A stretch of 64,000 bases of DNA from Candidatus Jingweiarchaeum tengchongense (lineage in GTDB: Archaea; Nanobdellota; Nanobdellia; Jingweiarchaeales; Jingweiarchaeaceae): contig JAPDLJ010000003.1 in assembly GCA_025920705.1 (NCBI GenBank), positions 1-64,000 on the forward strand, read 5' to 3'. The number at the start of each line of letters is the position of its first letter. Position 1 is the first letter of the stretch. Below the pieces are notes generated by a model that worked only from the letters and a program-made list of their open reading frames with translations, had not been told where the DNA came from and did no database searches. Below, piece after piece: positions 5,724 through 41,991 of this stretch. The translations under genes were made by a program, and so were the position numbers.

Positions 5724-6846
5724 TCACCCTTTTTTCAACCTCGTTTTTAATGATTCAATATAAGACTCTGCCATGTGTATTGAACCTTCTTTCAATTTAT
5801 CTTTTGCAAGATTCAATTCAAGCTCCATATCATATGTATCTATCCCTTTCTTCTTTAATTTATTTATCTCCTCCTCAACTTTTTCTATTTCTTCTTTTGT
5901 CTTAAAGTAATTCTTCAACTCTTCATCACTTAATCTTGAAGTATCGTGAAGCAATGGTCTGAATTGTATAAAGTAAGGAACACCATTATTATAAGCTGGA
6001 TTTTGGAAGAGACCACTTCCAATCTCCAATTTAGGTATTATAGAAGCGTACTGTGGACCATATTTCTGTTTCACTCTTCCAATATCACCTTCGTATTTCG
6101 TCCTTAGCTGTATCTCCGTCCCAATGTTTGCCCTTATCGCTCCTCTAAAGTCCATCAATACCTGCGATATCATGAACAATCCAATTCCCCATTTCCTAAA
6201 TTCTCTACATCCCCTCTCAAGCGCGGTGTAACCACCCTTTCCACCGTATTTCGGCAGTAATCTATGCACCTCATCATATATCAATAGTAACTTCAATTTC
6301 TTTGATTCAGGTAATGCTAATTTGAATATAGAGTTAATTGTATGTCTGACAAATGCATCGATGTCATCAGGACTCAATTCATTTATTGTGAATACAGTAA
6401 TTTCTCCAGATCCCCAATATTTCCTTATATCTATCTCCATCTTCGGATCAGTCACCCGAATGATATTTGTCTTGAAACCAGTCGCATTTGAAGGTTTAAG
6501 TCCAAAGCGCGCATAATTCTTTAACATTCCTTCATCCTTACACGGATTCATAAAACCTGTCCATTGTAGTGTTGGATCAAATACAATTACAGGAATTCCT
6601 TTCTTTAGCAATTCTTCAACAATCACCATTACTGAAACTGTTTTACCAGCACCAGTACCACCAGCCGCTATTCCATGCATCATTAATTGATTGATTTCAA
6701 GATATGCATTTCTGTCAGTATCCGCGATCCTGCCCAACCAGATTGTCTCTGGTCCAGCACTTGGAACTTTTGAAAAGTCAACAGGGAATGCATACTTCGC
6801 TCTCGCTCTCCTTCTCTCTAACCATATCACGTATAATCTCCTACCA
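5724..6846 (-). other. C-terminal cytoplasmic ATPase region of the giant protein
   Basis: Residues about 11,682-12,055. The order is a basic juxtamembrane segment, a short beta-rich region (ETIWLGRIADTDRNAYLEIN), Walker A coded at 6639-6662, an IPVIVFDPTLQWTGF strand, Walker B coded around 6270-6290, MISQ, RANIGTEIQLRT with a candidate arginine finger, and a C-terminal helical hairpin from about 11,985. This is the pattern of DUF87/HerA, VirB4 and FtsK-like hexameric pumps that move DNA or protein. All key catalytic residues are visible. Which subfamily it belongs to cannot be settled by eye. Confidence 0.8.
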
Positions 6847-9800
6847 GTGAACAGTAAGAATACAAGCGCAATAAGTGCGTATGTGAGAATTGATGTTGCT
6901 AAGTAAGATAATATTTTTATTGGGAGTGGGGTTTCAACAACCTTGAACGTTGCCAAGCTACTTGCAATTTTTGTGTCATAGTGAGCAATTGCCTCGATTA
7001 CGTACACACCAGGCTTTGCCTCACTTGGGATCCTTTCCTCTTTAGATACATCCAACGAATTTTCCACAGCTAATGTTTCCTCTCTTGCAACGATTAATTT
7101 CTTTGTCTGTACTTCTCTTATTGTATAGTTAAGCCAAACATCTACCTTCTTTGTTAATCCCAAGTTGTAAAGCGATATTGCAAATTTCACTTTTTCACCA
7201 GGATCTATTTCTGGTGTTAATATTTTGAGTTGCACATCAAGGAGCGCTTCTTTCTCTGGTATGACTTTCAATGTTGTTGCAACCCTTCTTTGTTCATTTC
7301 CAGCTGCAACAATAATTTCACCATCATATATACCGATTTGTGTAGAAGGTAATGTATAGTACTTGAATTTGATTGTTCTCGTTGATTTTCCTGGTAAAGT
7401 GAATGCAGGATTTTCAATCTGGATGTACTGCCATATATTACCTTCAACAGAAACAGTGACACTGATTGGATTTGGTTGGTTATTTGTTAGATCCAATGAG
7501 ACGATTTCAAATTCTCCTGGTTTTAATTCCACAGTAATTGAATTCTTTGATAACATTGTTGGCGCTGGAGTTATTTGTTCTAATGGTATCGTTGGTGCAC
7601 CACCAACACCACCCACCCCACCTGCCCCCCCAGCTCCTGCGCCCGCTGTAAAGTTTGCAGGTATGCATGCCTTTGTTTCTTCTTGATAAGTTGGTTTGTT
7701 TTTAGTTGTATTGCAATTGTTTAAATCAGTCCATTCCAAACAAGTTCTATTTTGTTGGAAGTTGATACATTCTGACCAGTTTGACCATGAACTGCACACC
7801 CAATTCTCAACACATACTTGTGGTGGAGGAGGTGGAGGTGGAGCTCCACCACCCCCTCCACCTCCAATTAATGGGCAATCAGAAGCGCAATTTAACGATG
7901 ATTCACCATACTCTAATTCACATTCAAAGTTACCACAAACATATTCAGCCAATGCATATGCTCTTCCCTGGATGGAAGTTTCATTTGACCAGACGATTTC
8001 ATTTAATGTATCAAGATGTGACCATCTTCTATACCATCCACTATAACACTTTAGATTTCCAAAATCCCAATCATCACACCTGTACACACCCAAATTATTT
8101 ATACTCGTAATGTTCATTTTATCATTTGAATAATTAAATGCAATCATTACATTACTATAATTTAATGTTGTATTAATCGAAAATCCTCTTAATGAGCCAG
8201 TACCAATGTTCTTTGCAGGTATATAACCAACTTTTACTGGATCAATGACGCTGTTAAAGATTGGCACCAAGAATAACTTGTAAGAAGCATTGAACATGTT
8301 TCCCTTCACGTCATAATTTCTTGCTGTTATTTCTTGTGAATAAATACCCGTTGTCGCATTTGATTCAAATTCATAAATCAAGCTGTCAGTACCCGCCCTA
8401 TACAATTGGAATAACACGTAAATTGGTGGCTTCGATGCAGACTCCTCATTCAACGCAGTACCATTAAACCAAATTGGGCTGACCACATCAAAGTAAGTGG
8501 TTGTTGTGTTACAATTTCCAGTATAATCGCAACACCTTATTACAGCATTATAGTCTCCAACTAAATTTGTACCCGTGAAGTTATATCCAAATATGTAACT
8601 ATCTGCCATCACACCCATCAATATCATTGGCATATTTGTATAAATTGTACCATTTGGTAATGTCACATTTAACATTGAGTTTTTAATCCCACCCATATCA
8701 GTTGCATTCACAATAATCAGAACAGTTTCAGAAGCATTTACCTTATCTGGAATCGATGATGCTGTTAAAATTGGAGGTATTGTATCATTATATATGATTG
8801 CCTTTCTCTCTTTGTCAAAGTATGTGATGTTCTCAGTTAAGTAATCTACACTTACATTCAAATCATAACCACGATTTAATGTTAGATTTGGTGCTTGTAT
8901 TCTCACAATCCAATAAGAATCTGACCAGCTATATGCAATGCTTGTGATGTTAGCTGTTGTATATTCATTTTCATAATTTAGAATTATCTTCCAATTCAAT
9001 TCAGAACCACTCGTGATTGGTAAGTTTGCATATGTTACATTTACATGAAGTTCAAGTGTATCATTTGGCATTACATTTATAAATGGATTTGTTTCAATTG
9101 GTGAAATGATGCTTACGGCATACGGATGCACAGTCAGATTTATTGTCGTATTCCTAGTTTGTGGATAAGCCGATGCATTCGACGTAATTAGATATTGTGT
9201 GAAATTTGTTTTGGAATTAACGGTCGGGACCGAGTAATTCACGCGCACAACACCACTTTCATTGAATGCAAGATAAAGCATAGTTGTGTTTGTACTTATA
9301 TAGCTCCCATTTACACTTACATTCAATCTAAGTCTTGAACTACCAAGATTATTTATTACAACATTACCAACCGTACCATTCGTTCCTTGTATTACATTCT
9401 TACTGATGAATACTGGAACGTGCTCCCACCAAAGTGGAACTGAAATGTTGAGCATAAATACTTCATATGCTTCAAGTGCACTTACATTGATTAATGCTTG
9501 GTAAATGCCATGCGTATAGTTCGGTGGTACTGTTATTGTTACATTCACTTCTACTCCTTCACCAACGTTTAATGCTTCGATGAAATCCGGATCGAAAGTA
9601 ATATTAAAGTCATTACATGGAATTCCAGATTTACATGTAAATGTGATGTTATGTAATGGTAGATTTCCAGTTGAATTCACATGGAATGTTGTTGAATTCG
9701 TTAGACCGATTATCGTTAAATTCACTACATTTTCAAGTACGTCAAGAATTGGATATTGTGTTATTTCAAATAATATTGTTGTTTTGTTTTCCCCCATGCT

Positions 9801-12800
9801 TCCGTTTATATTTAACCATACGAGCGTAATGTTTACTGTGTAATTACCGACCCCTTCTCCAGCAGGTACGATGATGTTTGTGATATTTGTTACGGAAGTA
9901 TTTTTCAGTACTTCACCATATTTAAACGAACTTGGCTGCGAACTCCAATTTTCTGGGACTTGGATGCTCATGTTCACATAATAACCTCTTGCGTGACCAA
10001 TATTTTTTATCGTCACATTTATTGGTACCGTCTTGTTTTGATGCACGTCCATATCAGGTATAATTACATGTGTCACATTCGGTGAAATCATAAAGCTTGT
10101 GTTATCTATCACAAAGAATTCCATTTGAGATGTACATCCAAGTACATTTTCAGTATCATTGGCACAGACGATTAACTTATATTCACCCGTTAAATTTGGT
10201 GAATAAACAATTGAATAATTTGAATTATTTGCATTCAAGTACACTTTTTCAGTTTCATTATCCGGTCTTGTAATATTTGTCCAAACATGACTAACACCAA
10301 GATTATCAGTCACAATTGCACTTATTGTTACATTCTCATAACCTTTCTCAACATTTATTGGAGTGATTGTCACATTTTGTATTATAGGTTCAGGATTCGT
10401 TACATTTAACCACATTGTTGAGAATTTCTGTACTTTATCCTCAGTCTCTTCGAATACAATCTGTAATTGATAAATTCCCCTTATTGCATTTATTGCTGCT
10501 GAATAGTTCACTTCAACATCTCTGGTCGTTTGTTTCTCAACGCTTAAGTAGTCCGGAGTTACAATTGTAATGAAACCAGTGAATTGTGTACCATTACCAA
10601 CCCTACTCACATTATACCACATTTTCACATTTCCAATGTTCGTCACATTTATTCTTGAAAGTGTTCCACTGGTATTTACCGGTACTTTAATCATGCCAAC
10701 ATTTTCAGGATAAACACTCCAATTCTTATCCAATGGCACTGTTAAATTTAGAGCCTTAAGATTAGATCCAGCATTGCTCGCATTTGCATTTATGTAAGTC
10801 CAATAAAATCCGGGTGATTGTCCAAGAGGTACGCTAACTGTAACTAGTGATGTGAGATTCTCTCCTGTTGCTAGGAAACCATAACCAGAAGGTACGAACG
10901 TGATCATACAGGTTGGACAGCCAGTTGACATGTTACCACCAACAGTATCTATGTTTATGTCTCTCAAGTAATCGTTGCCAAGCGATTGAATGGTTAGATT
11001 TTTTTGTGATGAATTACCATGCCATATTGTGAAATTTAATCCTTCGTAAATATTGATCACTGGGTTCGATGCAACACGGAGCATCGTATAGTTTTGAGTT
11101 CCATTATAAGATTTATCAGGATTCATCCACGTCGCATTTGTATAAACATAAATCGTTGAAGGTGGGGTCCCATTTTTTACCGTAACTAATACATACCAAA
11201 GACAACTGTTGTTTACACTCACATTTCCACAGTCAGTTGATGTTGTATTAAACGATGTATATCCGCTTGTCTCAATTATATTAAGTGTAGTATAATAAGT
11301 GGGTGTGGGTCCAAGATTTGTAAAGTTTATCTTCAATGGGAATGAATAGCTATCTATGATCGTGATGTTTGGAATCATCACTTCTCTCACTTGCTCTATT
11401 TTAGCATTTGTTTTTCCCCAAACATAGAAATATCCTGCGAATGTGCTATTAACATTACTTTCAGGAGATTCATCTTGTGCATATATTGTTACATTGTGTT
11501 CACCATGCAGGTAAGGATAATAATATACTCTGTAATTTCCAATTCTTCTTGGATGACTTCCTAGATAATTCATCGTTTTGTTTTCATAACTTCCATTTGG
11601 TAGACCAATCACAACCCAAACTTTATCATATGCAATCCCATAGTTATCCCAAACACTTGCATTTATCATTACTTGGTCTTTGTTTGCCTCTATTTCAATT
11701 GTTGGCTGAATTAGTGTGTTGTTTATTATTGGCGCTTCCTCATCCTTTATCCATGCATCAACACTACTTTCAGCAGTACCAGCATCATAGAATTTTGCTG
11801 GATCATTTGTGATATTACACTTGAATGTAATGTTACCTTTTTCAGGAGGCGTCCAATTATATTCAACAGTTCCATCACTACTTGTGTTGAATGTTCCGAT
11901 ATAATTTATTTCGTATGGAGTGAAATTGTACCACATTTTTAGTGTGTAGTTTGGTATTCCTTCCAATGAATCAGCATCTTCAACTTTGCACTTTAATGTT
12001 ATATTATATGGATAAGGTAATATCTGCCCTGGATTTGGATACAGTAATACAACATTTGCAATTCCATTTATTGTGATCCATCTTACATCCGTACCAGTAT
12101 CATAATAAATTTTAGTTGCTTTTACTGTGATATTCTGATATCCTGGTATTGCATTTACTGGTTGCCAGGTCGTTGATGTTCCTGTACCAATCAAATTGTT
12201 GAACTGGTCAAACCATTCTACAGTTGCAGATATTGGATTTCCATTTTCATCTTTTAGATTTGCTTGGAGTGGTATTGTACTTGCTTTGTTCCAGCTTGAA
12301 TTTTCTGCAGGCTGCGTTATTGTTATATTTAGTCTTCCCCTCACTGTAATACTGGTAGAATGGGTCGTTGATGGTTCCATACCAGTTTTTGTTGAATTTA
12401 TATAGATTGTGTAAGTACCTGGTAAAGTAGCATCATCCGGATTATAAATTATTGAACACCAACCTTGCGCATTTGTTGTACAATTGTCAAATAAATCAGT
12501 AGTATTATAGAACCAAACACTTGCATTTTCAGCATCTCCAATATTTGCATCCCTTACATGTACACTTATGTTACTTGCATACGGTAAAAAGCTATTGTTT
12601 CTATAAATTGTTGAATTATCAACCAGGATTTGATCTATAATTAAAGGTCTATTGATTATTATTGTTGTGTTCTTTGAATTTTGTGAGGATACGTAGTAAA
12701 AGTTTTCTGTGAAGTTTGTAATATTACATAAAATTAAGTAATTACCTGAACTTTCATTTGTAGTATCCCATGTCCAAATGGCATTTCCAAATGCATCTGT

Positions 12801-36800: not shown

Positions 36801-39800
36801 AATTAATCTATAACTCACATTTGAATAGTAATAATTTGCTTCTGCGTACATCGTGGTATTGTACCATCCTTTTGGTGTGGTCACATTTGTATTCCAATCA
36901 CAAGTATAAGCATTTGCACCTACTTGGCTTACTGGTGAGCACTCATAACCTGCTGTTGAATGATTCGCATAGAACTTTACATTTGTGCTTAATGGATCTC
37001 CGCAATCATCCGTTGTAGCACCTAAGAAAGGAATTTTTTGCTCCTGCGTATAATTCGTTGACCCATCTGGCTTTTGGAAATCCAAATTTATATCTCCAGT
37101 TACAAGAATGCTTAAATTGTAGTAATTTTCCGTTGAATTGTCCTCATAGCATGCTTGTCCAGAAATTACAGCTTTCCATTTTTGATTTCCCACTTGGTAT
37201 TTCGGAGAACATTTCGCCTGGAAATAGTAATTGGCATATGCGGATGAATTTGTTGTATTGCTCGTACCAACATCGTATATAGATCCATCCAATGTTACAT
37301 AGAAGGTAATCGGTAGATTTGTGATCAAAGTTCCATTTGCGTCTCTCACTCTTAATGCAAGTAATGTGGTCGTCTTTCCTCTTCTTGTTTCAGTGTTATT
37401 ACCAATTACATCCTCAAAAATCGTCTTGTCTTTTGTTATCGTGAAAGTTTTCGTCGTTGAGTTCGTTGTTCCTGCATCATTCGTCGCATTGAATTTCGCA
37501 AATACTGTTGAACCAATATCCTCACAATCTGGATCGAATTCGAATGTGAAATTTGTCCATTGTCCTGTCCCAGAGCCAGGTGCTTGATATATCTGACAGT
37601 TTCCTACTTGTTTCCATGGTTCACTACCAGTCTTACTGAACCAGGCGCAAACGCTTACATTATTCTCGGAATTACTTACTCTTACAGTAATATTAAAAGT
37701 GAAATTGAATCCCCAAGCACCAGATGAACTTCCTGTTTCATTCGATACAATTGTTGCATTCTCCATTTCAATTGAGGCAGGAGGAGCTAGCACTTGTACA
37801 TCTTTACAATTAAAAACAATCGTTGAGTTTTCAGTTGCATTTGCTTTTATGCAAAATGTATAAGTCCCTGGTGTTGTCCCAGATGTGTTAACAATGTAAG
37901 TGTAATCAGTATGTGCATTTCTTGATTGTAACGGACCTATTGTTCCAAGGTAAGTAAGATTACTAATTTCATTTGTGGAATTCCTAACTTCAAATTTGCC
38001 TGTATAGTTTATCTCAACAATTACATTACTTGCATTGCCAGGACCAGCATTATAAATTGTTGATGAAATGTTGAAAACATCACCAGCATATATCGTACTT
38101 GGTATTGTCGTTGGCTTTGAAACGTTTAATGAGGCACCACACGAAGCTGAGAAAATGTATGGTTTATTATAGTATATCAATGTTCCATTTAAAGGTATTG
38201 CTTGGAATCTGAAAGTACCATTTGTTTGATATGTTACATTTAATGTGTAATTGTAATATTTTGAATAAGGCTTTCCATACGGAGATTGGAAATTTATATT
38301 ATTGTCCCAGGTTATTTTTACTGAATCGTTTATCGTTGCAGGACTGCCTTCGCTTGACCATGTGTTTTGGAATATCAAATCTTGTGGATGCGTTACAGTT
38401 AAATTTTCCTTATTTTCAGTAAAGTTGAAATTGCTTCCTGGCTGGTTTCCTTTGTTGAAAACTTGGAATGAAACATTGAAAGTACCGCACCCGAACGAGC
38501 TTGGAAAACCTATGAGCCACTGGGAAGAAGATGCATCATAATAATTTCTAATTGTTTTAATCCAAGGACCAAGAAGCGTTATTGTTCTCTTGTTTTTTGT
38601 CCACCACTCTCCCTTATTCCTTGCTGCTTCACCTAAGAGATTTTGATACCATGGTTTTCCTCCAGGTGCAAATTGAAGAATGCTTCCTATGGTTGTTTGT
38701 ATGTTAGAAATCGTCACCAGACCACCTATCGTTGTTGATGTGGTGATGTAACCATTCGTAAATGCACCAAGTCTAGACCATCTAATCCACCAACCCTCAT
38801 ACATAGAACCTACTGGATAACCTGGATCAGGTGTATATCCACCACTAAAACTATCTCTACTTATATTGAAACCAGGAGGTATCCAAAGATCAATCACATA
38901 CACATAACCAGCAGTTGCAGATCCTGTTCTTATCGCATATTGTATTGTTGCCGAGGAGCTCTCTCCAATTTCTGTAATGTTTAGGAATGGATCAGGAGAA
39001 CCGGAATGTCCCGTAGCAGCATTAGCAGAGATAAATGTGTCCGTTTTTGTGATCGTTTGTGAGCTCTGAGTAACGGGATCTACCCAAACTACTTCTGTAA
39101 CAAATTGACCATCTGCACTTGCCTCTTCTGGACCAACCCATTGGATTGTTGCATTGAAGCATGAAGATGTTGGTATTTCTCTATTTAACCATTGAACTAG
39201 ACTTGCAGTTATTGTATTCGCGCTTGGTCCTTCTATAATTGTTGGTGCTGTTGATGGTGATTGGCCAGAAGGATATACAGTAATATTAACTGTTAAGTTA
39301 TAATCACCAAAATTACATACACTTAGTCTTTGGTAATTCCTACTACCACTATCACCTGTTCCTCTATTTGGATAAGTGGTAAATATGATAAGTGGAGCAA
39401 GGTTGCCTTCTTCGGATTGATAAATATCAAATGTTTTTGTATAAGTAAGAGTTGGTCGATTAGTTTGATTTATTTCAACTTTTAAAGTATAAGTTTTTTG
39501 AGGAATATCCTCTGGAACTTCAAATCTCCAGGTTAAAATACTCTCATTCCAATATGGGATTGTACTCGTTGCTCCAATGGAAAATGGTTTAGTAGTGTTG
39601 TCCCAGAAAAACCAATCTAACTGTGTGTCACCATCCCACAAACTAACTGTAACATTTCCAGAAACACTCGCAGTGGTATTGTAATTCGCTAGAGGAACCG
39701 CGATGAAAGCAATATGTCCTCTTATTATTTTTTGGTCCTCACCAGTAGGAGAATAAATTTTTATATCTCTGACCAGGTTTGCATTTGTACAGTTTATTAC

Positions 39801-41891
39801 TCTGACCGTAAGGATATTCGTATTTTCTCTGAATGCACCAGGATAAACAGATGAGGTTAACTTGAGCTTATATGTACCTGTTGCTGCGTCATTTGTGATG
39901 TTTAAAAGTCTTGTCTCGAAATAACACGCATCAGCTACACCATTTGTACAAGTTAAAGCAGCGTTACTTAATTCATTAGATACTGAATGATCATTTGTAT
40001 CCCCGCCCCAGTATGTCCAGCCAGCGTACGGTAAATTATTATATGTTGATGCACCTCCTGGAAGAAGTTGCAGTCTGAGAATCTGTGCTGACGATGCTGA
40101 GTCATAGGCAGCATCAACGACCTGTACGCTTACATTATAGTATTCTCCTCTACAAACAGTTAATGTATCCGTTATATTACTTGTGTCTCTCCATCTCCAA
40201 GTCCATTTTACATAATAATAGAAAATTGTATCAACTGCGATACTCCATGGTCTCACTTCTTCAAAGCTCTTAGCTTCTGAATCTTGTATATAATCAATGT
40301 GTAATGGTCCAACTAAATAGAGCATCGGTGAGATTTGCGGCGTTTTATAAGTATATTCCAGAATTACATTATCAGATGGATTTTCATATTCCCATAAAAT
40401 GAATTTTCCGCTTTCATTCTGTATTACGATTCCATTGGTTTGTGTTATTATGAAGTCATCCGGTATCGGTTCAATTATTTTAACACTTGAAGCGTTGAGA
40501 TATGGTTTAATGTATATTTTCATTTTTGTTGGTGGCTCTGGATATATCACTGTCTCAGATTCCCGAAGTATATCGAACTCAACACTTTCACGAACCTCAA
40601 AGATTGTTTCATAATCAGCATCGACGTCTTCCCAAATAGCTCTTGCATAAATTTTGTAAATACCGATTTCTTCTGGATAATAAGTCAAGTTATAAGTTCC
40701 ATCACCATTACTAATTATCCCATCATTTGTTGAGAATTCTTCTATTTTACCAGAAGGTGTTATTATTTTTAATGAAATGGAAGCATCAGGTACTCGATGA
40801 CCATATTTATTTAGTACGCCAACTATTATCTTAGTTTCTTCACCTACTAAATAAATCGATTTTGGTGTGTTTATATTTACCAAGCCAACGGAAAACTCAC
40901 TCTCACTTAAAATTTTATCAAGAAGCATTAGTCTCAATTTGTATAAACCTGGTTTGAAATTTCTACTTGTATCTATCAAGAATTCTTTTCTTAATTCATT
41001 AAATCGAATCTGTGTTTCATTTCCTTCTGGATCAATTAGAATTACTCTTAATTTTCCGAGCCATTTTGTTATGTTTTCATTTGTTAATATTTCAAAATTT
41101 ATCTTTTCACCAATTTTAAAGGATTTTTTTGGCAGTTTAATTTCTATACGTTGTTCACCCACTTGTACCTGTTCCTGTTCTAAGATGCTCTGATTTTTGC
41201 TTATTTCTGTTGTTGTATCTTGCCCAGTTGCTAACCCATTCTGCGTTTCACTTAAAGAAATAAAATTTATATGTTCAATCGTAGAGAAGTTTTCGGTACT
41301 TGCAACAAATGTGTATTCACCACTTTCATTCCAATTGGCAGTTATTGTGAAATTGAAAGTATTTTCTGATAGATCCAGTTCTCTTTCAAACACACTCAAA
41401 TTACTCGGAGAAATGATCTTTATTTTTATGATTGTTCCATTCGTTTCATTGACAATACCAAAAATAGTGAGATTTTCACCATAACTTAGATTAAGTTTAT
41501 CTAAGATCACGATTTCCTGCCCACTTGATGGATTCAAGGCTTCACTAATATTAAGGATGCTGAATCCTGTAATACTTCCATTAAGAACGATTAAAGATTC
41601 ACTGAGCACAATTGCGCCAAAAATTAAAATCAATAAAAATTTTATTTGAGATCTCACCTGGGATTTTGCACTGAGCTTATTACTTTTGTAATTCATCTGT
41701 TCTTTCAAAAACCAAAGATGCCTGCCACTCGTGCTGATTCTATCAATCTTATCTTCTATCTGCATCTCTAGAAGTATTTCATGTACTCTATGCCAAGATA
41801 TATTTAATTCCTCAGCAATTTCACCAGTACTTCTAGGGCTACTTCTTTTGAGAAGTTCCAGTATTTTTTCCTTGATTTCTTTATGATTCAT
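5724..41891 (-). CDS. Giant 12,055-residue membrane protein: winged HTH, TM, Ig-like repeat ectodomain, TM, HerA/FtsK-type ATPase
   Basis: One uninterrupted frame of 36,168 bp. Residues 1-65 are a winged HTH (GEIAEELNISWHRVHEIL). Residues about 84-103 are a TM helix after a basic segment. Then come about 11,550 residues of beta-sandwich modules dense in N-x-S/T sequons and paired cysteines, including about 23 related units of about 330 residues. A Cys-rich TSP1-like module with Gly/Pro linkers (about 11,316-11,435) follows, then Ig-like domains, TM2 (about 11,658-11,682) with basic flank GRRLYVIWLERRRARAK, and a HerA/FtsK-superfamily ATPase with Walker A GGTGAGKT (11,744-11,751), Walker B LLLIYDEVH (D11873, E11874) and a sensor-like MISQ. 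A helical hairpin ends it. Both termini should be cytoplasmic. Function is unknown: a contact organelle coupled to a DNA or protein pump is one possibility. A misassembly within repeats cannot be excluded, but the frame is never broken. Confidence 0.9.
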   Translation of the reverse strand: MNHKEIKEKILELLKRSSPRSTGEIAEELNISWHRVHEILLEMQIEDKIDRISTSGRHLWFLKEQMNYKSNKLSAKSQVRSQIKFLLILIFGAIVLSESLIVLNGSITGFSILNISEALNPSSGQEIVILDKLNLSYGENLTIFGIVNETNGTIIKIKIISPSNLSVFERELDLSENTFNFTITANWNESGEYTFVASTENFSTIEHINFISLSETQNGLATGQDTTTEISKNQSILEQEQVQVGEQRIEIKLPKKSFKIGEKINFEILTNENITKWLGKLRVILIDPEGNETQIRFNELRKEFLIDTSRNFKPGLYKLRLMLLDKILSESEFSVGLVNINTPKSIYLVGEETKIIVGVLNKYGHRVPDASISLKIITPSGKIEEFSTNDGIISNGDGTYNLTYYPEEIGIYKIYARAIWEDVDADYETIFEVRESVEFDILRESETVIYPEPPTKMKIYIKPYLNASSVKIIEPIPDDFIITQTNGIVIQNESGKFILWEYENPSDNVILEYTYKTPQISPMLYLVGPLHIDYIQDSEAKSFEEVRPWSIAVDTIFYYYVKWTWRWRDTSNITDTLTVCRGEYYNVSVQVVDAAYDSASSAQILRLQLLPGGASTYNNLPYAGWTYWGGDTNDHSVSNELSNAALTCTNGVADACYFETRLLNITNDAATGTYKLKLTSSVYPGAFRENTNILTVRVINCTNANLVRDIKIYSPTGEDQKIIRGHIAFIAVPLANYNTTASVSGNVTVSLWDGDTQLDWFFWDNTTKPFSIGATSTIPYWNESILTWRFEVPEDIPQKTYTLKVEINQTNRPTLTYTKTFDIYQSEEGNLAPLIIFTTYPNRGTGDSGSRNYQRLSVCNFGDYNLTVNITVYPSGQSPSTAPTIIEGPSANTITASLVQWLNREIPTSSCFNATIQWVGPEEASADGQFVTEVVWVDPVTQSSQTITKTDTFISANAATGHSGSPDPFLNITEIGESSSATIQYAIRTGSATAGYVYVIDLWIPPGFNISRDSFSGGYTPDPGYPVGSMYEGWWIRWSRLGAFTNGYITTSTTIGGLVTISNIQTTIGSILQFAPGGKPWYQNLLGEAARNKGEWWTKNKRTITLLGPWIKTIRNYYDASSSQWLIGFPSSFGCGTFNVSFQVFNKGNQPGSNFNFTENKENLTVTHPQDLIFQNTWSSEGSPATINDSVKITWDNNINFQSPYGKPYSKYYNYTLNVTYQTNGTFRFQAIPLNGTLIYYNKPYIFSASCGASLNVSKPTTIPSTIYAGDVFNISSTIYNAGPGNASNVIVEINYTGKFEVRNSTNEISNLTYLGTIGPLQSRNAHTDYTYIVNTSGTTPGTYTFCIKANATENSTIVFNCKDVQVLAPPASIEMENATIVSNETGSSSGAWGFNFTFNITVRVSNSENNVSVCAWFSKTGSEPWKQVGNCQIYQAPGSGTGQWTNFTFEFDPDCEDIGSTVFAKFNATNDAGTTNSTTKTFTITKDKTIFEDVIGNNTETRRGKTTTLLALRVRDANGTLITNLPITFYVTLDGSIYDVGTSNTTNSSAYANYYFQAKCSPKYQVGNQKWKAVISGQACYEDNSTENYYNLSILVTGDINLDFQKPDGSTNYTQEQKIPFLGATTDDCGDPLSTNVKFYANHSTAGYECSPVSQVGANAYTCDWNTNVTTPKGWYNTTMYAEANYYYSNVSYRLISPGLFYLFPIYKLENPSVIPSSQGWGYKNWNFSIISSSGDTDSYEVKLLLAKGSPTGFTECSDCVNQTPLNCSYPDCINQTKYWYKNFTSQDVGTWFYMFSLATESTSGYDSFVIKKDNTSIEYVSGNNSYANLTQAATFKVRVKDLIADTYNLTPATTVYFNVSYDGIYNYLVNSTTTDTNGIATVTFTPNCNFNPGAQKWFAWISEDSAYYSNISENFTITIDVTGCEPQPTIVEALSPIEVFQYNNFTINATISSLVSTSNDVYVTLNAPSEWQVDNRTKYIGSIGVGELKKVKWTINATTYGNFSISIYVNNSLGNDDTEYVNPIVWGYKYLGCPNARLTLKGIDVTSKVCSLDGVIGNDFDNESAEAKVDPGESILLEWDCGAIEPRVADIKIFWEALNGTANAVIIGYGKKEWFTVASTQIVTENITMKPLGPLGPDVGLFNNGSCGLQLRNYGPEPLMIDYVNASIYMIERVVVTDVTYLRSDDTVNMVISIKNPFNEWYNDTLLSINITNWDGNVSYYENSTYLNLTPNSLINYTFLVNTLNMPHEMLVVNTTLNFSDGNSTTRFERFYNIPEQVYLTLNPRMCPGTSETLNVELEGIHADENTIINVSVSVPPGWDVSPGYLEYVIFTPEDIKFEFNITSPNNAENATINVSISYLQEFLEFNITKLYQLNVSNANHSVIEVIRETPTRVYPNGVFESALVLHNKGCAPINGNVILKEEIKPGWTPANPNLLGGLNFNSSVDLENNLVIWQIAGFDVNEYGVATYQVKAPTTIGATGNMKWNLNYENVDWDEPHEFHHLQTANYTNESHIEFDLALWQLPDFPWNEPRSLQPNYTYNASLIVRNIGDTQANNWTIYLPIPGICDVTQVWNGSWNSSTRTIEWNLSNLNVRNTTYLNFTINCSSEGGIVLNPYAIKDTRGTINYTDYPNYVCSGASCDKTIYHTLQSPNKNYQRIINGGINFTFNATGENLTISELSIKTETDDNVESLFFERNFFGSIYFEYETIYNLTEDQSWRFRQLQHPLYLHSYATGTYGANTTSNITKIYYTWLYGLLFNETQHLFMKVKEYSYAPLLENATLYVNGNPSLTTGGWGEQFNFSVMVKDRFGRNVTVYAWHKKGVEDYNLIGSWECVNCASWTQANFSYDYSHLNISDNWYFKFNATNVDGSTEIGGYNFKVEKDDIDVINITPSWNENINRSTPYNFTLEIYDRDNQTPATLLEFGKGFIQISQFGSNTTYKTYYPQSPVVNESGYMTQTMTLSDWCPTANNFYLGQNYWKGGAIDSSYYNNNLTEPSPYNALLFWLMGDLSNSTIQSFNQNFTRGQTIAFSGSVIDDCSVTQTDPSKFGLEFRMMQNGNVYGTCITTTGFSCQIETNSSFPYGWYNVTMIAFGKGENGNKYWNGTKNILNAFFLASNISLTNPQVQPHPEGSWEIKPFNFSLIVTSEDNQNVTIMLWLKNTTYNWFLENSTSCVNCNNFDYSYQKNFSCDNIDNWYFKFNASSVTGFSATTSETAFNVTKSAISINYVSGNNSQVNRSDSSENNKVNLTVQIWDLVTNNYTNVIDLSNVHFRVKANGYWLENENEEYKNETHYYREFNPNCSYTPGKKYWNVTVSGASCYKDNQTENFYIEIYGNLLNQIVLPDGSANYTKGENITFRGRVLDDCNQPVTGLESRIEFKIQSGSNVYYCKGVGNVTYDGNGYYNCTWNSSEAISGGWFNVTMNSWNDYYNNGTDLKTNAFFLRTPVVLSAAQVNPNPGGWGETFNFSVTVTHYANVNVCLLEKMTATSNYQITECKYIQNPSNTLVNFTRNYSCSDYQDAALKYYKFNASEPGEPDTYAETTESSHLLEKDDIDIIYIAGNNSQVNRSGTPTKFILFVNDTDAGIPAYNPSYGAAKIWFKVHNGTTYIIPGWNTTNSSGYVEYNFAPNCSYEAGNRNWYAYSSADSCYKDKNSDTFNVVIKGFLTPNVTFPNGQTYQREQYLTINITGDVYDECNLHYFAGANVNFTIKSVAFPGTNYFCDEINDLGNGTYNCTWNATDAVQGWYNVEMNASNINFYNNGSSTKNNAFNIVQVWQPPVLKNETVLPEQDWGWGENFTFKVNVSDANGENVNVSLWISPDNLTWQYVSSQICYDCGTEQELVFYYKGFTCDYIPTAYFKFNASDAHNTTDRAGIDFTLDKDDVVIEYVLGNNSQVNRSESTLLGVRINDTDNKSYVFSGVNVSFWVTFDQSNFDNGGINTTNSDGYVNYGFIPNCSYSVGQQYWKAGTVNNSCYKNVNSTQNYTLTIKGWLNNILIEPNGNTEPGGDNVYQQYSNVTFEANVTDECGIKISNGNVSFNVSRIGYETFACYANNYTDGYYNCTWNSTDLAGGLYDVKMFSYTENYNSNLTTYTNAMFIEVPPNLFGLNVSPSSVPWGVNINFYCNVSDRDDVVNVSLWVKKISDTSFTLKDSQNVTNPINTRVTFTESFSSSQIGEYEWKINVTDKYGQTNESFGGYFNITKRNVYFEYIAGNNTNVSRIGSNVTLLSVKVIDAVEPGRGISGPTGKLYVTTDQSNYILDSTTSAVSNYLNFSFNPSCSYAVNLQYWKIGFESDYYFANNSSAYFVNILSVLNSNITQPNGEVIAVGESLIVNANVSDDCGSVSGATIKQFNVMQDGSSYHTCNANDLGNGNYTCTFDTTGDPLGWYNVSFNVSKNFYNGTFVEKINAFQLRARSQLSGAGAHPSSEGWGYNFTLNVSVQDSDPDDVVNVSLWKAYNQNGPWIYLESKNCTNCLSENTLNFYPVFTCNDLQSGPIVYFKFNSSDNYNLTKTSSIFNITFQKDNVSFIVEQGSGITINREGINYGTFIVLINDTDKGIPVPQGLNGYFNFSYNTTPVWDSDHTNTTDENGRISYYGFDPNCSYSTGMQYWKLTINGGDCYETKEMTSWESYYLYGQLKNNLEKPDSLVYNVSDQIPIRFNVSTDCSDEGLINDVSSITIKLIHNQTGNEYSCTNINNEGNGWYNCTWNSTNKPEGNYSVRIETSRNYYNNNITIYWNRFWLENINPYYSNLIVTPSEGGFGDVYRYNVTIDDPENDTVVCKLYVNTTGEWIYKGSSTVTNGKGNCSITVNDFTCNDYLLQAENSFIFELNDSTNVINTTIASGPILHKDIVNVTYIAGNNTNVNRYGASQQLKLRIYDLNRSQPAINPNGTIWITNDSQNYNFAYVINGDSNGYLTLDFDPNCSYSVGKQYWKGGVTNDACYVEVNSTENYTVNVIGSLFNTVIQPDGEKFLRGDNVTIRANVTDDCNVIIDPVTVNFTTKSLKTNELFICEPVLSEGDGHYNCTFNTSSMPPKAYNLTMKTNKTNYNENITTLTYTTYGSNSFWIETKPELYYPNVTPQIGGWGETFILSVNVSDPDEDTDVVYFYKKQLTDANGNPVSDDWHLIGTSSGSSSTNRTATRTTTFNYQQQGNWSIMFFVNESVYESDVDLGNDTKILNITVEKNDVSIEYIAGNETTFNRVSENTTFILRVIDLDLGQSASGAKTSFWVTTNASDPNSWGPRIPGSDSNSTGHFYLYFPVGVNKCVYNVGKQKWKGGVYNDQKWKDANSSIFNVTITSEFTPKINQPIGPKNNPAFERGVDNIPLSGNLSDDANCGLVPGATVYFSVPSENAFYLATDTGYGNYTATILGGDTWNWNWGWHNLTMNGSKSYYADENSTYENAFYINHRPEFVEGSWSITPGSGEWGTTFTFEIKVKNFDGDNVTVYLWIRKSGGEWQLANQTTYYGPTPSEGATIKLNWTSNCDNVGQNEYKFNASDSWNFTTETPAPYDIFTIDKRTATIEYIAGDNVNVTREGTFLVPLIIKVTYNGEPIENVNGSFYLMNRTGWYRYNTTKTNSTGHLTYDFNPGCDFSAGSKAWNAGVENDNCYYDVFLSANKTVNIYGQLKNNLDQPANGTIYPTGTIINFTFNLSTDCIGDGLLSGATRSIELRSPSGVWESCTPVYDEGNGWYNCTWNSIYKEPGWWDVRINTSGINYYNTNSSIFEDRFYLQNQPMTYDNMNVTPQQAGWGRTYNYTVYIDDPDLDDVNCTLYISKDGNQTWLNKGSMIVNGVGTCSILVSDFSCDDMDSNTSYKFELNDGYHSLNTSIQTGPNITKDSVYIQHVFGHLQNVNRTYGSLQLKVNITDLDKNALLAQAVTVKFNITTDGLSYKLEGSNTSVNGIATYNFTPACDYNVGNQNWFTYIEGETCYFNNQSQIYNLTVIGSLNNTLIAPNGQEFLKGDNVTLEANVTNDCNLPMNATVNLSVISNWYGSEFFCSPIYNNSNGYYNCTFNTSSMPARWYNTKVNTSKQFYNTNVSIFNNSFFIKTQLTLQSPMVNTSAEDGDTSNVGGFSEKFNFTIRVTDEDGDLVTVRVWIRKWNESAGNWGEWTIPNPSVPYVTCSDCNNTLLSITKDDFQPSDIGTYQFMWNATDTHSYIANTTPLNFTVEKDDVEIQHVLGNNEWIWRNGTDVKYLTTRVYDIDSGTYLGTGVSGRIWMTHDGVNYDDGYELSTQPGGYFNYTFEPGCDYGIGVQYWKTGTLGNMYYKDTNSSTFNITIKSYLQENITRPQGENYKRGQSIYIETFVYDECDNGVPNANTTKIYLVTSGASYLITTGITDHNNGTYSYNWDSNGRSLGTYNLTFEVQKDNYVLVNNTKINAFILGEPPELRNPSVNKIIGGWGENWTFSIEARDIEADSFNITLWKRLTPSSEWVAIETKQISSKTDWTPATYFYETFNCSDITPQGEYTQYKFTAVDSHGFTNETIPSNPNITIEKDDIDINLLNGYGIVINREGDESGLLMVEVKDFDRNVGISAGISGRFYLTTDGVNYNIYYLNYTTSDSKLKLEFNPNCSYTTGKQYWVAGTYNNTCYKDVNTTNDKNPEPAYYLNITGQLKNNLDVPAKDSIFNVTDQILIRFNTTSDCEDEGLIPNAQVSIELRSPSGVWESCTPVYDEGNGWYNCTWNSIGKEEGYWSIRLNSSKSTFNPNSTVYYDWFWLENLNTTSGNETVWIYNYTTGGWEDLAGRTLGWSRKFNYTIDIYDKEGDNVTCSLYISKDNQNTWLFIGSYQVNGSPGTPTQARCEVIYQGFNYSNIGTNNWFKWEIRDAEQNNYYNTTPTNAPNLTKSIVNVSYIQGNNSFVNRSDLFTGNITTLILRVFDTENNSYVQSGVSVSFWVTNDGNNYILSNLSETNESGYAIAYFNPNCSYGVGKQYWIGGVANDESYQNANTSSNFTLNIIGSLLVNLSQPNGEKYQRGSNITIKGNVSDECGIDITNAVVNFTSIHVDTGQQFYCTPILNESNGYYNCTFNTSSMPARWYNINFTSNATNYNSNTTIYNNRFFVETKPFLFAPSVMPGSGGWGETFTFKVNVTDEDLDVLTVRLYTNTSTGGAWELKASNTSVSGINITVTFVIPSPAFSSALANSWRMFKFNVSETSVDFEENVNETVPQNFFIEKDNVTITHIEGNNSVINRSDPSSTIYFVVNLTDIDRNTQVNGRTIDFYSTKNLSYPNTFTKIGDAITASGGIANYTFNLYARGDKCDFEVGPQKWKAGLAGQSDLEDKNSTTFYFNVTTISLNVDLISPRSNEKYRRGPVNYDSIVVYANVSDECRLLTGASVNIYAEQSGIVYGSCTPAIDEQNGTYKCTFNLDDTWSLGNYNITINATKQYYNASQTITYVDAFKVVSQPELSNPSYSTFSSEGTSDGGWNESWTFSVSFRDKDAGDNVNVYLWVNLTGNWELLNSTIITATGGTQQINFVGHRFLPNNIGTRYFKFNATDGYNNTNESIVSNFVIKEDEVDSLLQTSDSSVNREGSAKGILRVKVRDLDAGIDLYEGVNVSFWVTTNASDPNSFDSGFINQTNSTGIAHYYFDPNCSYSVGSQNWRAGVFNDYRFVEFGVNASSTITVIGQLKNNLTYPYYQQNFNVTNLIPINFTTLSDCSEYREDENPVINAASYTIELRSPSGVWESCTPVYDEGNGWYNCTWNSTGKEEGYWSIRLNSSKSTFNPNSTVYYDWFFLNNLAPNVSEPIVSPSLGGWSRIYNYSINITDPENDTVTCKLYVKTISSFVYKGSSTIATPGTCTVSVHDFTCADKSNASFYFVVNDTFNTINTSEIFGISQGPNITRSNVELLHVYGDSTEINRTYGNGNLILRIKDIENDSYPSGVNATIWITFDNNNFDSGTNLQSNSTGYLNYNFMPNCSYSVGVQKWKGGVRNDACYVEVNSTDYNLTLIGYLQNSINNPNGEEYLRGSNVTIMANLVDECSIPISQANVSFILNKGSTNYSCSPVNDELNGSYNCTFNTSGYAVRYWNITMNSSKAYYHTNTTTKIDAFWVETAPILEAPSVTPEIGGWGETFTFKVNVTDEDLDVLTVNFWLRRKGEDWGSSPSGVNSSVSGINQTVTFVKTFIDGTAIGEWEYKFNVTEDDNWSDETITKNFTVEKDDVVIEYVFGNNSIVNRTTGSTYLTVRVKDIDKNVYLGSGVSGKFWITTDFNNYYDVFSPVTDNSGYLNFTNFAPKCSGPKYEIGPQKWKAGIVGNEWYKDTNSSVFNINITTIPIQVNLSVPNGGSYLRGIDPILIRGNASDECGLLSGVTIEFNSEKGETIYSCSPVYDEGNGWYNCTIPGVAHSGRPLGYYNITMNASKQYYDPSYVLKRVDAYYLATRPTLSNAYATSEQGSSVGGWGENWTFSATVQDLDANDVNVYLWVNLTGNWELLNSTTCYSCNNPTQINFFGHSFSCSNIGIRSFMINASDTKNYKANITNTFTIEKDNTVSQYVYGTGSYVDREGNSNTTLILRIYDTDNEQYVGANINSTIYVTLDGSAWDHGASLITNSSGYINYYFDPNCSYFVGVQNWKGGVRNDACYKDSNSSSFSLNVIGQLKNNLTKPIFNQTFAVGEIVNITFNLLTDCEDEGALPNAQVSIELRSPSGVWESCTPVNNLTNGTYYCNWNSSFKEGGYWDVRLNSTYSSNYHDNSTTYDDWFFLVNTPPNFGNISVTPSTAGWGDIFSYGVDIDDLQNDNVTCKLYVSKDNNTWYYKGSTYLSNGVGRCVINVSDFDCSWIGQNYFKFEIDDGTPGNAFNTSVFNEPNVTRDTVTIYYITGNNGFVNRTSTNTLLLSVRIYDNSSKSYVPSGVNGTIWITKDGSEYDSGNFNQTNSSGYLNYNFDPTCAPVKYEVGTQKWKVGLMDECYIQTNTTEYNLTVIGTLFGTITQPTGGNYLRGSTVQLRGEVKDDCLVGIENANVSLNVTNENLNVFSCTPVFELGSGYYGCDWNSGGKPARWYNATMMSNKTYYNSNVTVKSNAFFIETKPVFTNQSVTPEIGGWGETFTFKVNVTDEDLDNVTVSVWIRKIGDPSFTKANETIIISPINQTVVLTYKGFSGAQQGEWEYYFYGIDTRNYDNSSDTKNFTVEKDDVRIEHLSGNNTTVWRDTNEYSLLKVQIYDDDKNETLIPSQNVKFWVTYDGINYDSGTLNITDSSGIVIYYFDPGCEYNVGTQKWKAGTVNNDYFKDKNSSEFLVHIWSHFLPFIIQPNGESYLKGIDNITIKVNLSDECGGVSGANVLIKYKQGAFEDTCTPVYYEGNGVYNCTINSANLPSYGWYNISVNVTKSYYPVNYTFKENAFFLATKPVLSNPSVLPGSGGWGETFTFKVYLTDYDQNIVNITLWRKMLTDGNWTYIDSKNASGVGTEVVFTTNFSCAEIGQNQYKFNATDVWGYTNETIVLNFTIERDNATVERTYGDGTTVQRGSTQSFRIKIKDTDRNMYVGAGVNGTIWFTRDGSQFDYNLSCTTTSDSLCTVYYTPDCNSTVGQQYWKGGAIDACYQIVNSSNGNFNVRGQLIVNISSPSNNTNVKRLDYVQFNSSVKDECNLTVDDSTVSWYNESDILLATGYNTTWQVPSMYKINKTIIKSIASRTNYLNGSSNVTLFVYGWSYVANITPANGTNFLAGTMVDVTCNVKDLHTQENISNYNVSFYKDNVFKASEMTDAFGNAIWTWDTTNESSGNYLILCNITNFTENFYYVSSQNSKNTTIIINRPLIIDQILVDNSTIYRNNSFLPYASNISVHVRDANIGDAENASVWFYNTTDLFDNCTTNAQGWCSIIYNPDDATLPGTYTIYINSTKTGMEPSTTHSTSITVRGRLNITITQPAENSSWNKASTIPLQANLKDENGNPISATVEWFDQFNNLIGTGTSTTWQPVNAIPGYQNITVKATKIYYDTGTDVRWITINGIANVVLLYPNPGQILPYPYNITLKCKVEDADSLEGIPNYTLKMWYNFTPYEINYIGTFNTSSDGTVEYNWTPPEKGNITFKCNITNDPAKFYDAGTAESSVDAWIKDEEAPIINNTLIQPTIEIEANKDQVMINASVWDNYGIAYDKVWVVIGLPNGSYENKTMNYLGSHPRRIGNYRVYYYPYLHGEHNVTIYAQDESPESNVNSTFAGYFYVWGKTNAKIEQVREVMIPNITIIDSYSFPLKINFTNLGPTPTYYTTLNIIETSGYTSFNTTSTDCGNVSVNNSCLWYVLVTVKNGTPPSTIYVYTNATWMNPDKSYNGTQNYTMLRVASNPVINIYEGLNFTIWHGNSSQKNLTIQSLGNDYLRDINIDTVGGNMSTGCPTCMITFVPSGYGFLATGENLTSLVTVSVPLGQSPGFYWTYINANASNAGSNLKALNLTVPLDKNWSVYPENVGMIKVPVNTSGTLSRINVTNIGNVKMWYNVSRVGNGTQFTGFITIVTPDYLSVEKQTTRDVEVNYSAAINAIRGIYQLQIVFEETEDKVQKFSTMWLNVTNPEPIIQNVTITPINVEKGYENVTISAIVTDNLGVSHVWTNITRPDNETEKVYLNANNSNYSIVYSPNLTGEYKLIVCANDTENVLGCTSQMEFFVIDNTSFMISPNVTHVIIPDMDVHQNKTVPINVTIKNIGHARGYYVNMSIQVPENWSSQPSSFKYGEVLKNTSVTNITNIIVPAGEGVGNYTVNITLVWLNINGSMGENKTTILFEITQYPILDVLENVVNLTIIGLTNSTTFHVNSTGNLPLHNITFTCKSGIPCNDFNITFDPDFIEALNVGEGVEVNVTITVPPNYTHGIYQALINVSALEAYEVFMLNISVPLWWEHVPVFISKNVIQGTNGTVGNVVINNLGSSRLRLNVSVNGSYISTNTTMLYLAFNESGVVRVNYSVPTVNSKTNFTQYLITSNASAYPQTRNTTINLTVHPYAVSIISPIETNPFINVMPNDTLELHVNVTYANLPITSGSELNWKIILNYENEYTTANITSIAYSWSDSYWIVRIQAPNLTLNRGYDLNVSVDYLTENITYFDKERKAIIYNDTIPPILTASSIPDKVNASETVLIIVNATDMGGIKNSMLNVTLPNGTIYTNMPMILMGVMADSYIFGYNFTGTNLVGDYNAVIRCCDYTGNCNTTTTYFDVVSPIWFNGTALNEESASKPPIYVLFQLYRAGTDSLIYEFESNATTGIYSQEITARNYDVKGNMFNASYKLFLVPIFNSVIDPVKVGYIPAKNIGTGSLRGFSINTTLNYSNVMIAFNYSNDKMNITSINNLGVYRCDDWDFGNLKCYSGWYRRWSHLDTLNEIVWSNETSIQGRAYALAEYVCGNFECELEYGESSLNCASDCPLIGGGGGGGAPPPPPPPQVCVENWVCSSWSNWSECINFQQNRTCLEWTDLNNCNTTKNKPTYQEETKACIPANFTAGAGAGGAGGVGGVGGAPTIPLEQITPAPTMLSKNSITVELKPGEFEIVSLDLTNNQPNPISVTVSVEGNIWQYIQIENPAFTLPGKSTRTIKFKYYTLPSTQIGIYDGEIIVAAGNEQRRVATTLKVIPEKEALLDVQLKILTPEIDPGEKVKFAISLYNLGLTKKVDVWLNYTIREVQTKKLIVAREETLAVENSLDVSKEERIPSEAKPGVYVIEAIAHYDTKIASSLATFKVVETPLPIKILSYLATSILTYALIALVFLLFTGRRLYVIWLERRRARAKYAFPVDFSKVPSAGPETIWLGRIADTDRNAYLEINQLMMHGIAAGGTGAGKTVSVMVIVEELLKKGIPVIVFDPTLQWTGFMNPCKDEGMLKNYARFGLKPSNATGFKTNIIRVTDPKMEIDIRKYWGSGEITVFTINELSPDDIDAFVRHTINSIFKLALPESKKLKLLLIYDEVHRLLPKYGGKGGYTALERGCREFRKWGIGLFMISQVLMDFRGAIRANIGTEIQLRTKYEGDIGRVKQKYGPQYASIIPKLEIGSGLFQNPAYNNGVPYFIQFRPLLHDTSRLSDEELKNYFKTKEEIEKVEEEINKLKKKGIDTYDMELELNLAKDKLKEGSIHMAESYIESLKTRLKKG
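7590..7945 (-). other. Cys-rich TSP1-like module with poly-Gly/poly-Pro linkers in the giant protein
   Basis: The translation shows VCGNFECELEYGESSLNCASDC, a run of seven glycines and seven prolines, a thrombospondin-1-like CVENWVCSSWSNWSEC segment with RTC, then an Ala/Gly-rich linker (GAGAGGAGGVGGVGG). The same CGxGxC...NCxxDC plus Pro/Gly linker architecture occurs in the 50,478 gene. These look like disulfide-bonded spacers between rigid extracellular parts. The Gly/Pro junction DNA at 7817-7868 is itself a near palindrome around GGTGGAGCTCCACC. Confidence 0.7.
12960..33560 (-). repeat. About 21 tandem units of roughly 0.94-1.03 kb within the giant gene
   Basis: Each unit of about 330 residues has three beta-sandwich parts. 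Part a opens with GGWGETFTFKVNVTDED and ends with a VEKDDVxIEYVxGNN..VNR box. Part b ends with PNCSYxVGxQxWKxG..NDxCY. Part c has PNGExYxRGxNVTIxANVxDEC, then CxPV and YNCTWN. Unit starts, read from the WGE box, lie near 33545, 32525, 31545, 30545, 29575, 28640, 27650, 26680, 25660, 24685, 23745, 22735, 21720, 20690, 19670, 18665, 17720, 16740, 15770, 14800 and 13850. Conserved cysteines suggest disulfides, hence an extracellular location. I counted about two dozen N-x-S/T sites in the unit starting near 30545. Confidence 0.9.
13860..28640 (-). repeat. Higher-order repeat: five blocks of three different units, period about 3 kb
   Basis: Units recur in an A-B-C order. Type A carries GQLKNNL and often RSPSGVWESC. 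Type B carries a D-x-x-N/D-D-x-V-x-C-x-LYV box. Type C carries GGWGETFTFKVNVTDEDLD. Blocks start near 28640, 25660, 22735, 19670 and 16740. DNA copies are very close: 18697-18783 equals 21754-21840 over 87 bp and the match continues with 2 mismatches to 18872, with a further copy of the second half near 24806. 17632-17697 equals 20605-20670 over 66 bp. Confidence 0.8.
33560..36110 (-). other. Non-repeat spacer region inside the giant protein
   Basis: About 850 residues between the second and third repeat units with no PNCSY, KDD or GWGE boxes. They look like a run of NEW1/CARDB-like Ig folds (for example PPGWDVSPGYLEYV and KPGWTPANPNLLGG segments) with sequons. They mark a change of architecture close to the N-proximal end of the ectodomain. 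No known binding domain is recognised. Confidence 0.55.
36110..37765 (-). repeat. Two divergent repeat units separated from the main array
   Basis: Units with the same part a/b/c order begin near 37745 (GAWGFNFTFNITV) and 36765 (QGWGYKNWNFSI). They keep the VGNQKWK and PGAQKWF boxes, but the second lacks part c. They are less similar to the rest and are probably the oldest copies. Confidence 0.75.
41583..41891 (-). other. N-terminal cytoplasmic winged HTH and first TM of the giant protein
   Basis: Residues 1-65 form a compact wHTH (helices at 3-16, 22-29 and 33-43, wing near 50-62). A basic linker and TM helix at about 84-103 (FLLILIFGAIVLSESLIVL) follow, then the GSITGF motif. A membrane-tethered HTH on the same polypeptide as an ATPase and a giant ectodomain suggests surface-to-gene signalling or DNA handling at the membrane. 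That role is inference. Confidence 0.75.
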
Positions 41892-41983: not shown

Positions 41984-41991
41984 GCTTTTAC

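Follow-up and report, generated by a model that had tools for sequence, protein, structure and literature searches.

The closest described counterparts of the protein analyzed here are the SPEARE giants of nanohaloarchaea, described by Hamm et al. 2019 as proteins of 5,998 and 8,553 residues having a C-terminal transmembrane (TM) segment and, inside the cell, a conserved "type III restriction" region, with similar sequences in other DPANN archaea (PMC6642349). Peptides from the TM and cytoplasmic parts of a nanohaloarchaeal SPEARE were found only below 315 kDa, and the outer parts were in a different size fraction (PMC6642349). A 2023 study re-read SPEARE as a series of Ig repeats followed by a TM segment, an ATPase and a coiled coil, called the inner domain VirB4/TraG-like and proposed that the proteins form secretion "straws" (PMC10266531). 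The nanohaloarchaeal SPEARE proteins span 5,998 to 9,409 residues (PMC6642349; SVXNc_0300 and BNXNv_0298 in PMC10266531).

The window (the whole stretch of 64,000 nucleotides analyzed) belongs to contig 23 of a 1.118-Mb draft genome in 40 contigs, taken as Nanobdellota and the sole member of its order among the genomes compared. It encodes a giant protein of the same kind on the minus strand. The frame opens with ATG at 41891 and runs for 12,055 codons to a single terminal stop, exactly the extent and length given in the first-pass annotation, and the opposite strand has 624 stops across the same interval. Only two membrane spans were found by hydropathy (residues 78-108 and about 11,658-11,691), and both have basic residues on their inner flanks. 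The predicted split is an inner N-terminus of 77 residues, an outer part of 11,549 residues and an inner C-terminus of about 364 residues. The annotated order of helix-turn-helix (HTH), TM, ectodomain, TM and ATPase was borne out by hydropathy and domain searches. The coupling proteins of type IV secretion systems (T4SS) have a TM1-external loop-TM2-ATPase topology; that of the giant is the same in outline, its loop being 11,550 residues. GC (0.33-0.37) and GC3 (0.25-0.31) are even along the whole gene, and its DNA repeats are diverged (the best pair is 95% identical over 192 nt and most others are 60-85%). Repeat collapse or chimerism is therefore unlikely. A chimera or frame error at the junction of ectodomain and ATPase was rejected on the strength of the uniform GC, the diverged repeats and the occurrence of the same order in relatives.

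Table 1 Features of the giant gene, its promoter and its neighbors
Feature	Position in window	Strand	Basis
Giant gene, 12,055 aa: winged HTH, TM1, Ig-like ectodomain, TM2, HerA-type ATPase, helical tail	5724..41891	-	
Winged HTH, residues 1-65, ending RHLWFLK	41697..41891	-	Pfam and homology
ATG of Met67, shortly past the stop position of stand-alone HTH genes	41691..41693	-	
TM1, residues 78-108	41568..41660	-	hydropathy
Ectodomain, residues 109-11,657, 663 N-glycosylation sequons	6921..41567	-	
Repeat array, 23-26 copies of a unit of about 325 residues, spanning residues about 1213-9870	12282..38255	-	self-comparison
TM2, residues 11,658-11,691, basic inner flank RRRARAK	6819..6920	-	hydropathy
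HerA-superfamily ATPase, residues 11,695-12,055, three-helix C-terminal tail	5727..6809	-	profiles, model
Two abutting copies of palindrome ATTTGTACAAAT	41996..42019	.	operator-like
Degenerate third 12-bp copy ACTTGTAAAAGC, between palindromes and TATA box	41984..41995	-	
TATA-box-like TTATAAATAA (putative)	41974..41983	-	sequence
Predicted leader hairpin, z-score -2.3 over a 76-nt fold	41898..41926	-	
315-aa protein, weak winged-helix match	2653..3600	-	
397-aa coiled-coil protein, member of partner family f1	3845..5038	-	
224-aa charged protein, predicted soluble, directly 3' of the giant	5043..5717	-	
727-aa predicted secreted protein	42022..44205	-	
415-aa TM-anchored protein with laminin-G domain	44212..45459	-	
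MinD-type ATPase, TIGR01969 above cut-off	45520..46281	-	
469-aa protein: NEW3-like ectodomain, TM, cytoplasmic tail	46278..47687	-	

The giant shares with SPEARE an Ig-repeat ectodomain, a C-proximal TM, a P-loop ATPase matching the type III restriction (ResIII) model and a helical C-terminal tail. It differs in size (12,055 residues versus at most 9,409) and in its N-terminal winged HTH (wHTH). By the 2019 definition a SPEARE ectodomain carries one or more laminin-G domains, whereas none was found in that of the giant at E 0.01 (a neighboring gene has one), and the protein is therefore filed as SPEARE-like rather than as a strict 2019 SPEARE. Likened by published descriptions rather than by sequence, the giant fits the SPEARE plan in every tested feature except laminin-G. 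Uniqueness of the architecture is not supported: the nanohaloarchaeal giants are built in the same way, and secretion has already been proposed for them (PMC6642349, PMC10266531). The kind of protein is thus already known, and the suggestion of contact-driven transfer in the first-pass annotation is close to the straw proposal. New here are the size, the affinity of the ATPase to HerA without a HAS barrel, a family that spans two DPANN phyla with conserved neighbors, an ectodomain unit of about 325 residues that accompanies the ATPase, and the N-terminal HTH.

The ATPase model (pLDDT 93.9) has a RecA fold. Its best structural match in the PDB is the Sulfolobus solfataricus HerA 4d2i (E 8e-13), followed by more HerA, TcpA and FtsK entries, and the PDB profile search also gave 4d2i (E 2e-14). 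Pfam, NCBIfam and the PDB, searched both by sequence and by fold, all put HerA nearest, in support of the earlier call of a cytoplasmic HerA/FtsK-type ATPase, and Walker A (GGTGAGKT, residues 11,744-11,751) and Walker B (D11873/E11874) are intact at the residues first assigned to them. DUF87 and HerA_C were matched by all 40 family ATPases tested and ResIII by 21 of the 40 (E 4.6e-6 for the giant). When aligned over 364 positions, 40 relatives are 43-69% identical to the window ATPase and show no or almost no change in the catalytic motifs. As the ectodomains of the family range from roughly 200 to 11,550 residues while the catalytic motifs stay constant, the motor is the part held by selection.

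The giant shares the RecA core, Walker motifs and DUF87/HerA_C matches of HerA (S. solfataricus 4d2i; T. kodakarensis HerA-NurA, 9x1l/9x1m). However, HerA has a HAS barrel, whereas the ATPase of the giant is membrane-bound and lacks one by profile matches and model, the space being too small: only about 30 residues, with no domain between, separate the end of TM2 (11,691) from the start of the DUF87 match (about 11,719). The ATPase domain alone scored 35.6 bits against the NCBIfam HerA equivalog, which has a cut-off of 800. In a maximum-likelihood tree, 69 family ATPases stood apart from the two ordinary HerAs of the source genome (support 97/92); the very long outgroup branches make the rooting untrustworthy, although the separation of the family is trustworthy. 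The missing barrel, the score far below cut-off and the separate tree group set the domain apart from HerA proper. Judged from its sequence, it represents a membrane subfamily within the HerA superfamily.

SPEARE ATPases were called VirB4/TraG (PMC10266531), whereas that of the window giant is nearest HerA and no VirB4 gene adjoins it. PF03135 (CagE_TrbE_VirB, the VirB4 N-terminal domain) was absent from the whole source genome at E 1, and a VirB4-type T4SS was rejected on that ground. The check proposed for the C-terminal end, an HMM search plus structure prediction, gave DUF87/HerA_C, a confident model with HerA as first fold match, and no VirB4 N-terminal domain. Profile, fold and tree evidence favors HerA rather than VirB4 as the nearest family. 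The crenarchaeal DNA import proteins CedB/CedD and TedB likewise have HerA/VirB4-type ATPases, with a TM in CedD, and Ted loci have a MinD/ParA gene nearby, as does the giant; in contrast to these proteins the giant lacks a VirB4-like N-terminal domain and has a giant ectodomain (PMC11868833, PMC9905601). The NCBIfam CedD match of its ATPase (E 4e-8) covers the Walker A region only, and no CedA-like channel gene was recognized in its cluster. The ATPase had no match among phages; among plasmids it gave just weak DUF87 matches (25%), on three from haloarchaea. A viral or plasmid origin was rejected, given this lack of phage matches and the 23S, 16S, RNase P and tRNA genes of the window. Those genes (RNase P, 23S, tRNA-Ala and 16S, archaeal) lie at 55324-64000 on the minus strand, and long ORFs inside the rRNA genes are spurious. 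Elsewhere in the comparison, locus L014 (contig 6) has viral-looking gene content, namely a 224-aa ATPase of the packaging type alongside unannotated proteins.

The ectodomain was described as glycosylation-rich, and indeed its 11,549 residues hold 663 N-X-S/T sequons compared with 235 +/- 13 in shuffled sequences (an excess of 34 SD) and 246 copies of the reversed motif. The cytoplasmic C-terminal part has one sequon in 363 residues. This excess gives independent support to the predicted extracellular location of the middle of the protein. Self-comparison showed units 24-41% identical to a reference unit, with self-similarity strongest at 966-991 residues, or three units. An AlphaFold model of the unit from a 23-row alignment (pLDDT 87.5) is all-beta with 20 strands, and its structural matches are the MG domains of alpha-2-macroglobulin and complement, RbmA, a titin Ig tandem and S-layer proteins. 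From the model we read each unit as about three Ig-like beta-sandwich domains. At about 108 residues each, roughly 107 domains is a reasonable figure for the ectodomain, in keeping with the earlier count of about 110 Ig-like modules; Pfam itself recognized just a few Big_7, Filamin and NEW3 domains. The published accounts of giant bacterial Ig adhesins (Mobiluncus, 7,651 aa, PMC10619420; the ice adhesin, PMC4083281) give the same rod of about 100-residue Ig-like domains with different anchors, and a cytoplasmic ATPase is not mentioned in the parts of those accounts drawn on here. Note that residues about 11,319-11,409 (window about 7665-7937) form a Gly/Pro-rich linker and a Cys/Trp-rich thrombospondin-1-like module immediately ahead of the membrane-proximal domains. 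As read from its sequence, the giant is a HerA-superfamily ATPase in the cytoplasm tethered by two predicted TM helices to a rod of about 107 Ig-like domains.

The family ATPase was present in 50 of 378 genomes of the class (31 of the 191 near-complete ones) and in 55 of 156 genomes of a second DPANN phylum (that of G379, an Aenigmatarchaeota record). At 13% of the class genomes sampled, the distribution is too patchy for a universal contact organelle. The source genome has three members of 12,055, 4,862 and 1,095 residues, and frames of 8,055, 8,189, 11,249 and 11,262 residues were found in independent genomes. Separate genes for ATPase and ectodomain throughout the relatives had been named as possible counter-evidence; what was found is that 65 of 69 distinct proteins from two phyla have a TM directly ahead of the ATPase and behind an ectodomain. 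Departures from this order include L128 and L134, which have no ectodomain, and L066, where it stands in a separate frame. Moreover, the unit of about 325 residues was found again in giants from other genomes that carry the ATPase, second phylum included, and is almost absent elsewhere in the loci fetched, indicating that ectodomain and motor have a shared history. Five genomes (G014, G112, G251, G297 and G349) combine a short-ectodomain copy of about 770-840 aa with a longer one of at least about 1,200 aa, and the two could form a two-subunit ring.

Several neighboring genes recur with the family. At 49 of 65 testable loci an f1 coiled-coil gene follows on the same strand, no more than 2.5 kb downstream; an archaellum coiled-coil identity was rejected as the 28 f1 members tested had no consistent Pfam match. 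Counterparts of the 315-aa protein also follow f1 in relatives L050 and L019 (35-36% identity). The second giant locus of the source genome, on contig 1, has a MinD paralogue and a larger paralogue of the 469-aa protein, so that both large copies have a MinD ATPase and a protein of the NEW3-TM-tail type nearby. Upstream of the ATPase gene, much of the class encodes a PKD/Ig-TM-tail protein (f2; 17 loci). At L052, L054, L057 and L086 the ATPase cluster has a further wHTH-like gene (f4, 165-220 aa) on its downstream side, and next comes the gene for a large TM surface protein. Within the window, a ParB/Noc-family gene (1788-2651; TIGR00180 above cut-off) lies near the giant operon, and a divergent cluster of genes for six membrane or surface proteins occupies 47802-54046; among the six are two TM proteins and two secreted paralogues, one of them weakly DUF4402-like.

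Our tentative first choice is that the giant acts as a SPEARE-type "adhesin-pump" performing ATP-driven translocation of a polymer at cell contact. By analogy with HerA structures, six copies would form a HerA ring beneath a ring of 12 TM helices. The ectodomain arms would extend about 0.2 micrometre as loops, and up to about 0.4 micrometre with one end freed, and may attach to a partner cell or neighbor, given the many Ig-like domains and the epibiotic lifestyle of DPANN archaea. The ring would dock to the coiled-coil partner f1, perhaps be positioned by MinD, and spend ATP in moving a polymer, either protein or DNA, across the membrane at the contact. The HerA fold, the motif conservation, the TM-ATPase order (65/69), the presence of f1 (49/65 loci), the grouping of the family (97/92), the recurring ectodomain unit, the sequon excess and the published straw plan (PMC10266531) were counted in favor of this mechanism. 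Counted against it, no transport substrate, channel protein or effector was identified, the VirB4 N-terminal domain was absent from the genome, the family is patchy, the cytoplasmic and outer parts of a nanohaloarchaeal SPEARE lay in different size fractions, and some relatives have no ectodomain or have it in a separate frame. A literature search found no experimental test of a SPEARE-type mechanism. We know of no experiment on any family member that shows translocation.

The same missing components are consistent with a giant adhesin in which the HerA-type domain assembles, clusters, orients or retracts the rods at the expense of ATP and no polymer is moved. Adhesive folds dominate the ectodomain, neither a channel, a substrate nor a T4SS N-terminal domain was found, and the partners (f1, MinD and the TM protein whose tail is cytoplasmic) point to a scaffold inside the cell. 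However, the ATPase is of the HerA pump type, the solved relatives of which include DNA translocases, and it is conserved far beyond the needs of a mere anchor. We consider this reading unlikely, yet the strongest competitor to translocation.

The N-terminal domain raises a separate question. Residues 4-62 match several Pfam winged-helix families below threshold (best E 9e-4). The wHTH call, already made in the first-pass annotation, is firm for residues 1-65 because stand-alone wHTH homologues of 60-75 aa match them, with E values as low as 5e-12 when genomes were searched and 1.3e-15 among extracted ORFs. This small family is present in 57 other genomes of the class. All 34 loci examined (L189-L222) have it as a separate gene, mostly of 60-75 codons; at 29 the start of the next gene falls at most 60 nt from the HTH stop, the commonest arrangement being an overlap of exactly 16 nt, and the product of that gene nearly always has a TM close to the N-terminus. 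The 16-nt overlap is seen at L192 (1489-1674 and 1659-2450), a regulator-surface-protein gene pair conserved in Nanobdellota, and the pair at L194 has the HTH at 1477-1698 and the next gene from 1702 onward. In G285 the HTH stop is followed by three nucleotides and then the in-frame ATG of a surface protein, within an open frame of 2,426 residues. Stand-alone proteins end LWLLK-stop, whereas the giant has LWFLK, two sense codons and then ATG67. Among 36 full-length proteins with an N-terminal TM, paralogues included, the giant has 77 residues ahead of TM1 and all others have 37 or fewer; the closest relatives, G073 and G154, end at contig edges and lie outside this comparison. The HTH was therefore rejected as a conserved feature of members with full N-termini, and the earlier view of it as a general part of the machine is not supported, since one of 36 proteins has room for it and its homologues are separate small genes. 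It appears to be a small regulator gene fused onto the giant. The simplest reading would be loss of one stop codon between adjacent genes, for which a base error could also account, and Met67 is a possible second start that would give an HTH-less protein with the N-terminus typical of the family.

The wHTH was probably once an operon-leading regulator encoded just before a surface gene, now read into the giant frame; it would probably control the promoter of the giant through the tandem palindromes, or be bypassed by the Met67 start. Those two copies are the sole exact occurrences of the 12-mer ATTTGTACAAAT in the 1.118-Mb genome, and we read them as a putative operator. The promoters of 14 relatives of the HTH family lacked ATTTGTACAAAT and had AT-rich palindromes of another type, and hence an operator common to the family was rejected. 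Upstream of the HTH genes at L189, L191, L193 and L197, near the TATA region, is an AT-rich palindrome-like sequence resembling TATGAATATTCATA that is possibly an autoregulatory operator. The HTH might instead be live, a tethered regulator like ToxR or CadC that reads tension or contact at the ectodomain and switches the gene through the palindromes. HTH, TM and ectodomain share one frame, and the palindrome is unique to this promoter, tandem and just upstream of a TATA-like box. Yet the HTH occurs in no other member with a known N-terminus, its family normally stands alone before surface genes, one base or the Met67 start would part it from the giant, other HTH promoters have a different AT-rich pattern, and nothing ties the HTH to ATTTGTACAAAT. 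Such sensing is improbable, although it does not exclude translocation.

Scarcely different in likelihood is cleavage after synthesis, whereby the ectodomain would be the adhesin and the TM-ATPase, or the ATPase alone, a separate enzyme of the membrane or nucleoid. The different size fractions of the cytoplasmic and outer parts of SPEARE, with TM and cytoplasmic peptides only below 315 kDa (PMC6642349), mean that the protein may be cut and its parts may work apart, and loci L128, L134 and L066 show that the ATPase can occur without an ectodomain or in its own frame. This is also improbable, since most of the proteins in both phyla hold the two parts in one frame behind one TM and this ATPase is repeatedly found with the same ectodomain unit. 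Finally, that separate genes were wrongly joined in assembly or reading of the frame is very improbable, and for the junction of ectodomain and ATPase largely refuted, as against a draft in 40 contigs and an HTH join that hangs on one codon stand 36 kb of open frame, uniform composition, diverged repeats and the long family frames of independent genomes.

The broadest reading of the locus, which we regard as doubtful, is a largely one-polypeptide system for contact-dependent translocation (rod and HerA pump in one chain, plus the coiled-coil partner) that would be distinct from type IV secretion, occur in at least two DPANN phyla and, with the regulator fused here, link contact, pumping and transcription. 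The family is widespread and barely studied. The ATPase, TM, ectodomain unit and coiled-coil partner trace it through Nanobdellota and a second DPANN phylum, giving named candidates and a search route, and the nanohaloarchaeal "straw" passes from a salt-lake curiosity to a conserved motor family with a recognizable partner gene.
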